A stretch of DNA of 64,000 nucleotides. It comes from Gamarada debralockiae (Eukaryota > Ascomycota > Leotiomycetes > Helotiales > Hyphodiscaceae). The stretch is taken from contig NXFV01001565.1 in the NCBI GenBank assembly GCA_002803225.1, positions 1 through 64,000 of the forward strand. The letters are read 5' to 3'. The translations under genes and the position numbers were made by a program. This document shows, piece by piece, positions 46,135-48,772 of this stretch (position 1 is its first letter; each line of letters begins with the position of its first letter). The notes under the pieces were generated by a model, which was given only the letters and a program-made list of their open reading frames with translations, made no database searches and was not told where the DNA came from.

Positions 46135-47889
46135 CTACTGACTACGAGCCTTCTCCACATACTCCTGACTTGGCGTCTCGTATTCGGTACTGAAATAAAC
46201 GGAGGCCTTCTTGCCGAGCCAGTTGGTGATCTTTGAAAGTTCTTCGCGAAGGCGGTTGACTGACTGCATATCCATATTGGTCTGAGCAATCAACTCTGGG
46301 AGGGAGACTGTAGCGCATTAGTCTTGTTGATCAATAGCAAGAGATTATAACAATTACCTAAAAGACGACACAAATGCTCTGCTCCATAAATATCACCGAC
46401 CGTCTTTCCAGCTAGTTCACCCTCGCTTGCTTCCATCGACTGTCGGAAATCGAGATACTGGGTGCGCTCAAATCTGGAGACATCATTAGTGATGGCCGAG
46501 AATTTTATTAGCAGTTGTATCTCACCTGTAGAGTAGAATACGTCCCAAACACTTGTCAAAGTAGAGATTCAATCCAGCAACGACTTCCTCCAAGATATCG
46601 GCTTGTGCACTGCCTGGCTGTCTTCTTGGTCTCTCATGCTCGACGTAATCTTTCAAGATTGAGTTGACAGAATGCTTGGCGGGTAGTGGGACAAGTTGTT
46701 GGGCCTTGGTGACATTCTCCCAGTCGTCGACTAGAATGGCTTTGATGTGGTCGGGAATAACGAGCTTGACTGAAGGTCTGGCGAGAAAGCTATCTTCCTG
46801 ATAGCGAAAGTTATGTGTTAGAATCTTTTCCTCCTCGATATCAGGTAGAATCTTTCGCTTGACAGCCTTTTGCGGGACGAGACCAGGAAAGATAGAATCT
46901 TCTTCCGAGGAATCCAATTCGGACGATTCACTTGAATCCTCATCCCAATCGCTGACTTCAATTGAATCTCTGACTGCAGAGTTCCGAACGGGTACAGTTC
47001 CGTCCCTGATGTCCCTTGGATCCGGTTCGCCTTCGTCGCGAATGATTCCGGCAATAGGAAGGCACATCCATTCGGGCTTGTCGCTGTAATACAGACGGTT
47101 GGCAGGCGTGTCGGTTCCTCTCTCGATGTGAGCGATTAGCTTTGGATGAAGTTTCAGCTCTTCGTTATCCTTGACCTTGTCCTTGTTGAATTTGTTGACA
47201 TCCAGATCCTTATACTTGTCCGGATCCTTAAGTTCGCCGTTGAAATCGAGGTATTTGTAGTTGCGAGGAGGTCGCTGTAAAACGGGGTCAGCAATCACTC
47301 ACTTTGTTTGAGGCTTTCGGTCTCTGCTGTCCGAAGAACTCACGATGAGCAAGTGGTCAGGAGCCAGGCATTGGTCAGAGCGAAGAACTCTCAGAACGTC
47401 CCAATCCTTGCTTTTCGGATCGGCCCAAGATGCATTTACAGTAGCTGAGCTTCTAGTGCTCTTGCGAGGAAGGTTGGAAGTTGACAACTCGTCCGAGACA
47501 CGTTGTCGACGAAGTCTTGGGCTTCTCGCAGCATCGACATCGGATTCGACCGTCTTTGAGAGCTGTGAGGATTGTGTGAGATGTTGATTCATAATGAATA
47601 ATTGAAGTCTGGAAGCTTACTGGCTTGGGATTGAAGGTACGGTTATTAGTACCATCGTTGCTGCCGTTTTCATTTCCCTCAGGCGGACCCAAGAAGGCTC
47701 GAGGGCTAGGCGATTTCGCCCGCTGGCGTTTAGGAGCAATTGTGTGAGCTGGTACAAAAAGCCATGTTTCGAAGGTGAACTTACGTTTTTCAATGTTCTC
47801 AATGAAGCAAAGACGCCCTCATCAAGATCGACATTGTCAACATCTTCTCCATCAGACGAGCTGATGTAGATGACACGTTTTCGCGTCAT
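46135..47889 (-). CDS. nested alternative transcript: novel N-terminus joined to the MRG domain
   Basis: Inside EAF3 intron 2 and on the same strand, an ATG at 47889 opens a chain of exons: 47889-47785, 47722-47621, 47562-47344 and 47274 onward. Introns of 62, 58 and 69 bp have GTAAGT/GTAAGC/GTGAGT donors and CAG acceptors, all phase 0. The last exon reads with no stop and in the correct frame straight through the EAF3 exon-3 acceptor (FRYQ then EDSFLARPSV), so splicing would yield a 487-residue protein: 301 new residues replacing the chromodomain, followed by the complete MRG domain. The new part begins MTRKRVIYISSSDGEDVDNV, is Ser/acid-rich and basic in patches, and contains RPPRNYKYLDFNGELKDPDK and HPKLIAHIERGTDTPANRLY. 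I do not recognise this region. About 230 bp upstream inside the intron could be its promoter. The model is inferred from sequence alone. Confidence 0.55.
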
Positions 47890-48772
47890 TGCAAAGCAAG
47901 GTTGTGTATGTGGATGGAAATGATTCTTCAAGTTTGGTTGAAGGCGAGGTGATGATTGGCAAGAAGTAAAGACGAGGTCCATAATCCCGAGTACGCGTTG
48001 AGGTTGGAGGTGAATCCGAGAAATTCAGTATCAAAATGCGTGTGGCCACGCGATGGCATCCAGGAAATCCAGCTCCGGTGAATAGGTCAAGCGCAAATTA
48101 AGTAACAGCAAGGAAATAGAGGACTCACATTTTCAATCTCGTAGTCACGAGCTCTTCTTTGACCACCACGTCCACTCTGAGCAGCAACTGAAGCAGTTCG
48201 TTCTTCGCTTCCACGTCCAGAGCTGAAATCCGAGCCGTTTGCTCTACCGCCATGTCCTTTCTTTCCAGACTTCGGCTGCTTCTGCAGAGCCTTCATCTGG
48301 TTGTGAAGCTGGGCTGCAAGTTCTTTATTCTCTTCCGTGAACTTTCTCACTCGATCCTGTGGAACCCAGTCGTCCCACTACTCAATCACGTGGTTAGAAA
48401 CGCACTCAACAATTTGCAGAGATGAAGCCATCTTTTCAAAGACTTGACAAAGAAAGGGATGAGGTTGGTGCTTGCTGTAAAGTAATACAGCCAGGTGGAA
48501 AGCGGAAAAGTAGACAAGCGTCATTCTTTCTAATAGGGAAGCAGCTTGACTACCCCTTCCAAGCAAGTCATGCCGCATCAGGGATTCACACGGGGTTGAC
48601 TTACTGTATTCTTCCATCCTTTATAATGGATCTTATATTGAAAGGATGTCGCGTCTTCAGTTGGTCTTGAATCCAAGACTTTTGCCTCATAAAGCATTTC
48701 GTGGTGGAAGCAGAGAACTCTTTCATCTTTCGAAAATGGTGCCGTCGCCGCTGCTGGTTTAGAGGGAGCCAT
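46135..48772 (-). CDS. EAF3: EAF3/MRG15 chromatin protein (chromodomain + MRG)
   Basis: Subunit of the NuA4 acetyltransferase and Rpd3S deacetylase complexes; its chromo barrel reads H3K36 methylation. Exons 48772-48605, 48377-48129, 46797-46526, 46473-46358 and 46307-46135 give 325 residues, the normal family length, with all phases matching. Exons 1-2 encode the chromo barrel (KDERVLCFHHEMLYEAKVLD, FQYKIHYKGWKN joined to TWDDWVPQDRV) and a basic linker. Exons 3-5 encode the MRG domain (ARPSVKLVIPDHIKAILVDD, AGLNLYFDKCLGRILLYRFE, REELSKITNWLGKKASVYF). Intron 1 is 227 bp; intron 2 (48128-46798) is 1,331 bp, more than twenty times the local norm, and contains the nested exon chain listed next. 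Confidence 0.92.

Follow-up and report, generated by a model that had tools for sequence, protein, structure and literature searches.

Introduction

Eaf3/MRG15 is a methyl-lysine reader that helps to target the Rpd3S complex to transcribed genes. A vertebrate MRG protein without a chromodomain, MRGX (MORF4L2), is encoded by a separate gene. In yeast Rpd3S, the MRG domain of Eaf3 was reported to bind the SID and PHD1 of Rco1, two copies of Eaf3 are present per complex, and both chromodomains bind an H3K36me3 analogue (PMC10709384). Similarly, S. pombe SIN3S contains two copies of Eaf3 (PMC10115800). Intragenic initiation was reported to be suppressed by Rpd3S (PMC11006229). In Zymoseptoria, deletion of eaf3 led to the loss of H3K36me3 in regions that are also affected by the deletion of ash1 (PMC10553808). 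An alternative start was described for ZEB2 of Fusarium graminearum, which has a long and a short isoform, and the alternative start gives an inhibitory form without the DNA-binding domain (PMC9604717).

A nested start within EAF3 was not found in the titles and abstract openings among the literature matches listed. A term search over the available portions of papers on alternative starts in fungi gave no mention of Eaf3 or MRG, and the words isoform and intron are absent from the available portion of the Zymoseptoria Eaf3 paper (PMC10553808).

The EAF3 locus described here was found in a contig of the fungus Gamarada debralockiae, and the window is the whole stretch of 64,000 nucleotides that was analyzed. 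An earlier note on this DNA had predicted that the locus also makes an MRG product without the chromodomain. The prediction has gained weight from the conservation of the same fusion in many sequences and from an annotated Sclerotinia protein of the same design.

Results

The canonical EAF3 chain

The MRG domain was found in one place in the 54.3-Mb assembly, at the EAF3 locus. The outer, canonical chain is composed of the following features.

48605..48772, minus strand: EAF3 exon 1, 56 codons, start of the chromo barrel; after splicing, the protein passes the cut-offs of the chromo-barrel profiles PF22732 and PF11717
48129..48377, minus strand: EAF3 exon 2, 83 codons, remaining chromo barrel and linker, with a phase-0 donor
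46798..48128, minus strand: EAF3 intron 2, 1,331 nt, GTGAGT...TATCAG, which contains the nested chain
46526..46797, minus strand: shared MRG exon 3, common to both chains
46358..46473, minus strand: shared MRG exon 4, common to both chains
46135..46307, minus strand: shared MRG exon 5 with the stop, common to both chains

When 48772-48605 and 48377-48129 were joined to the MRG exons, a protein of 325 amino acids was obtained, with introns of 227, 1331, 52, and 50 nt. This is the length that the earlier note had expected only if intron 2 is 1,331 bp long. There is also good support for the removal of all 1,331 nt, since VENEETF of human MRG15 aligns without gaps with the canonical junction EIEN/EDSF (the slash marks the junction). 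The canonical protein scores 221.8 bits for MRG (PF05712; cut-off 22.8) and 78.1 and 39.1 bits for the chromo barrel families PF22732 and PF11717, and it is thus classed as an Eaf3/MRG15-type protein.

Introns of about 50 bp had been described as usual in the window. This holds for the EAF3 introns of 52 and 50 nt, but not for EAF3 intron 1 of 227 nt. Intron 1 (48378-48604) divides the chromo barrel and exceeds the nearby introns of 50-62 nt, and its codon-usage scores are non-coding in all six frames.

The nested chain within EAF3 intron 2

On the same strand, intron 2 holds a second chain of four exons, preceded by a putative promoter region.

47890..48128, minus strand: candidate intragenic promoter plus 5' leader for the nested transcript, assigned purely from position
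47785..47889, minus strand: nested exon 1, with the ATG at 47889, beginning MTRKRVIYISSSDGED
47621..47722, minus strand: nested exon 2, 34 codons, poorly conserved
47344..47562, minus strand: nested exon 3, 73 codons, part 1 of the conserved block (WADPKSKDWDVLRVLRSDQCLAPDHLLI)
46798..47274, minus strand: nested exon 4, 159 codons, part 2 of the block (RPPRNYKYLDF...LPIAGIIR) and an acidic/Ser-rich linker, in frame through the acceptor

The nested introns, of 62, 58, and 69 nt, all run from GT to CAG and share phase 0. The GT-AG chain was recovered as it had been described, with four phase-0 exons, clean splice sites, and a frame that continues into the MRG exons; the ATG at 47889 and the junction positions reported before are exact as exon ends. 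The chain translates to 487 amino acids, of which 301 are from the nested exons and 186 from the MRG exons, and this is the product that had been proposed, 301 residues followed by the whole MRG domain. The nested chain has its own start codon and its exons are joined in frame to the shared exons, which is the structure of an alternative first-exon isoform. Scored through MRG exon 3, the nested chain reaches 109.8 bits for PF05712 against a cut-off of 22.8 and belongs to the MRG family. Chromodomain families are absent among its Pfam matches up to E 10, and the nested product is not of the Eaf3/MRG15 type.

Codon usage was scored with a model built from ten long stretches of the window that are free of stops and presumed to be genes, and with this model the proposed frame of nested exons 1-4 scored 0.16, 0.11, 0.02 (barely positive), and 0.17, compared with 0.07-0.09 for four shared or canonical exons. 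The five remaining frames of every nested exon were negative, bar 0.01 in one frame of exon 2, and the 239 nt upstream of the nested ATG scored below zero in each of the six frames. An open stretch of 167 phase-0 codons leads up to the MRG acceptor, and 5 of 5000 dinucleotide-shuffled versions of the intron did as well. The earlier note had judged that such agreement of frame is hard to reach by chance, and a chance open reading frame is ruled out by the homologues and the shuffles.

When the exon-4 block was used as a query of 159 amino acids, it was found in a single place in the 54.3-Mb assembly, at the locus, and a second copy was not found. Insertion of a duplicate from a parent copy at another locus was also considered and is ruled out, since neither the exon-4 block nor the MRG domain was found at any other place in the genome.

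Homologues of the nested part

Three homologue searches with MRG-free queries gave 14, 34, and 20 proteins, which represent 48 distinct proteins, or 49 sequences when the window is included. The nested part is fused in frame to MRG within the same protein in 43 of the 48 homologues (44 of 49 with the window). The block-to-MRG linker has 21 different lengths among the 44 in-frame sequences, from 22 to 133 residues; the frame to MRG has therefore been kept through many changes of length. This homology with in-frame MRG fusion is decisive for the reality of the nested chain. The earlier note had asked if MRG always follows the 301-residue part: it does so in 43 of 48, and among the other five, three (by eye) continue beyond the MRG start off-frame and two end before MRG.

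Mean pairwise identity was calculated over 31 full-block sequences, including the window, as 46% for the block, 26% for the linker, and 78% for the MRG exon. Clustering of these 31 sequences by single linkage, with a threshold of 60% identity in the block, gives 13 lineages. The relatives were compared as proteins, and chromodomain exons are assumed to lie upstream in them.

The homologues also bear on the nested introns. At the junction of nested intron 3, 41 of the 48 read straight across with two or fewer inserted residues, which confirms this intron. Nested introns 1 and 2 are aligned across by one and two of the 48 homologues, respectively; as the surrounding sequence is poorly conserved, these two introns are supported by their splice sites, phase, and open frame. 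Starts of the form M-x-K-K-R that resemble nested exon 1 by eye are present in P0025, P0027, P0029, and P0039. The homologues that terminate exactly at LLYR, where the next donor of the window starts, number 31 of 48, and most of the homologue proteins look like exon-level calls by gene finders that are blind to introns.

The conserved block

The block starts at WADPKSKDWDV, ends with LPIAGIIR, and is about 90 residues long. A conserved-looking block had been noticed from the window itself; its conservation was verified in the homologues, but its extent is larger than the stretch named at that time. No convincing Pfam family was found for the block when 10 and 13 members were scanned. DUF3223 (E 0.11) and NanE (E 0.38) were each matched weakly in one of 10 members (Pfam, E up to 1), FCSD_central was matched weakly in one of 13 members (E 0.033), and these candidates were rejected. 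Similarly, sequence searches of the PDB with the block gave nothing in one search and a single chance-level match in each of two others (E 0.12 and 0.4).

Structure prediction was applied with AlphaFold. The model of the open reading frame P0004 has a pLDDT of 66.5 and a pTM of 0.31. In Foldseek, its best matches are ten Eaf3/MRG chains with E from 0.011 to 0.19, followed by chance matches, and no match of this model reached E 0.001. The model of P0016, which holds the block only, has a mean pLDDT of 73.2 and a pTM of 0.34 and shows short helices; between residues 21 and 110, the means over ten residues are 78-96, with one at 69. A Foldseek match for the P0016 model was not found at E up to 10. 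The block looks like a small ordered motif without a recognised fold, which may depend on a partner.

In the nested linker at about 46880-46980, an FPGL motif follows the acidic/Ser-rich stretch and recurs in many homologues; it is possibly a short docking motif. At the border of linker and MRG, PF18639 Longin_2 was matched below its cut-off (E 0.11 in the window; 25.3 against 27.3 bits in P0044) and was taken as spurious.

Dual use of the acceptor and the branch site

Two elements of EAF3 intron 2 lie within nested exon 4.

46798..46800, minus strand: CAG acceptor of EAF3 intron 2, which is also the last codon (Gln) of nested exon 4
46817..46821, minus strand: CTAAC, which is probably the branch site for EAF3 intron 2 and is translated as Leu-Thr in nested exon 4

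The residue that precedes the MRG exon is Gln in 43 of the 44 in-frame sequences, including the window. It is Lys in P0047, which could be encoded by AAG. By the genetic code, a CTRAY branch site is free of stops in only two of the three frames. A dipeptide compatible with CTRAY is present 6-10 residues upstream of MRG in 38 of the 44 sequences and in 3 to 13 of the 44 in seven other five-residue windows, where the set of compatible dipeptides was defined post hoc and the sequences, which are related to each other, were compared as residues and not as codons. The compatible dipeptide is absent at -6 to -10 in P0011, P0036, and P0045 and in the Sclerotinia-like P0038, P0044, and P0046. An earlier count of the dipeptides LT, TN, and LM, pairs that were picked after inspection, gave 30 of 33, compared with 13 of 330 in control windows.

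The Gln together with a dipeptide compatible with a branch site is what is expected if the longer transcript still uses the same acceptor. The simplest reading would be that both the splicing at this acceptor and the read-through of it have been kept in most lineages. One coding sequence seems to double as the branch site and the acceptor of another transcript.

Discussion

Alternative explanations

The alternative that survives best is that the nested exons are optional internal exons, which are spliced after EAF3 exon 2 and give a protein of chromo barrel, block, and MRG. Since the EAF3 exon-2 donor and every nested acceptor share phase 0, splicing of this kind would keep the reading frame. 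For ordinary Eaf3 to be made, the exon-2 donor would have to skip the nearer phase-0 nested acceptors, and hybrid proteins are therefore a live alternative. However, P0025, P0029, and P0039 each have a single uninterrupted frame from the M-x-K-K-R start to MRG, without nested introns, and offer no usable nested acceptors. The annotated protein SS1G_14339 also begins without a chromodomain. By eye, a pyrimidine-tract acceptor was not seen in the window just upstream of nested exon 1, although one in-frame AG is present. With these points weighed, the internal-exon explanation is considered unlikely.

The nested exons could also form a separate gene that is closed off ahead of MRG by a splice or stop that escaped notice, so that its frame with MRG would be incidental. 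P0016 and P0027 end upstream of MRG, and P0001, P0005, and P0026 run on into the MRG DNA out of frame, with C-termini that by eye resemble shifted translations of the MRG exon. These five are set against the 43 of 48 homologues that stay in frame with MRG despite a variable linker, and P0027 is on a contig of 1,455 bp and may be cut off before MRG. An extra linker intron would explain the missing fusion in P0001, P0005, P0026, and P0016; for the first three, either such an intron or a loss of the fusion in the lineage accounts for the shift of frame. A separate gene is thus judged highly improbable.

A chance open frame or a decayed insertion in an overgrown intron, without any product, would fit the low conservation of nested exons 1 and 2, but it is refuted in substance and scarcely credible in view of the 48 homologues with protein-level constraint and a frame kept with MRG, and of an exon-4 block without a second copy in the genome.

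Proposed mechanism

Both chains of the locus, the canonical and the nested, are well-formed. An intragenic alternative start in EAF3, which produces a second MRG protein with the chromo barrel replaced by a conserved block, is the explanation that we hold to be likely. Judged from the sequences, one gene probably gives rise to two chromatin proteins with different targeting.

Transcripts from the outer promoter would have all 1,331 nt of intron 2 spliced out and would encode ordinary Eaf3 with chromo barrel and MRG. From a second, putative promoter inside intron 2, at about 47.9-48.1 kb, the nested transcript would start. As the nested transcript would lack the intron-2 donor, exon 4 would be read through the intron-2 acceptor, as Gln, into MRG. 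The nested product would retain MRG, and the chromo barrel that reads H3K36me would be replaced by a charged start, the block of about 90 residues, and the variable linker. From the intact shared MRG exons, we infer that the nested protein may join the MRG complexes (Rpd3S/Sin3S, NuA4 or TINTIN) as a second subunit form with different targeting. The form without the chromodomain would redirect the complex elsewhere or compete with full-length Eaf3. The splicing of nested introns 1 and 2 and the effect on targeting are likewise predictions.

A more speculative extension, to which we give a small but real chance, is that the nested start serves the Eaf3 pathway as an inherent sensor and switch, whose state could sustain itself once repression weakens. 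Since Eaf3 in Rpd3S reads H3K36me3 over transcribed gene bodies and suppresses intragenic starts, it would hold down the start in its own gene. With weaker repression, the nested protein would be made and would occupy MRG sites, of which there are two per yeast Rpd3S. Its conserved block would act as a targeting part other than a chromodomain, and the reading of H3K36me could be weakened further.

If the alternative start is true, MRG complexes may have two targeting states that are set by the choice of start. Two proteins would then be removed together by the deletion of eaf3 in such fungi, and knock-out results would need to be read again. The finding also adds a conserved block without a recognised fold.

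Comparison with known systems

One annotated homologue is P0044, which is the Sclerotinia sclerotiorum gene model SS1G_14339, a 480-aa 'MRG domain-containing protein'. Like the nested protein, it has the same block followed by MRG, and no chromodomain was matched in it at E up to 0.1. It differs in that it is known here as a database gene model whose MRG part is without residues present in exon 4 of the window. The model has LLYSDACPQTCASDTYGAEHLC where the window reads FERTQYLDF..., and part of the MRG domain is missing, which may reflect a splicing error in the annotated model. The locus tag SS1G_14339 was not mentioned in the literature searched.

Compared with Eaf3/MRG15, the locus has the same MRG exons, and its outer chain is an ordinary Eaf3; in contrast, the nested form lacks the chromo barrel and carries a different conserved N-terminal block. 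The nested form is similar to MRGX (MORF4L2) in that an MRG protein without a chromodomain is present beside a full-length relative. However, MRGX has its own gene, whereas the two EAF3 forms share one locus and three exons. The ZEB2 case, as far as it is described in the available part of the source, is also similar, as a fungal alternative start removes an N-terminal functional domain; Zeb2S is a plain truncation, whereas the nested EAF3 form gains new conserved coding exons (PMC9604717).
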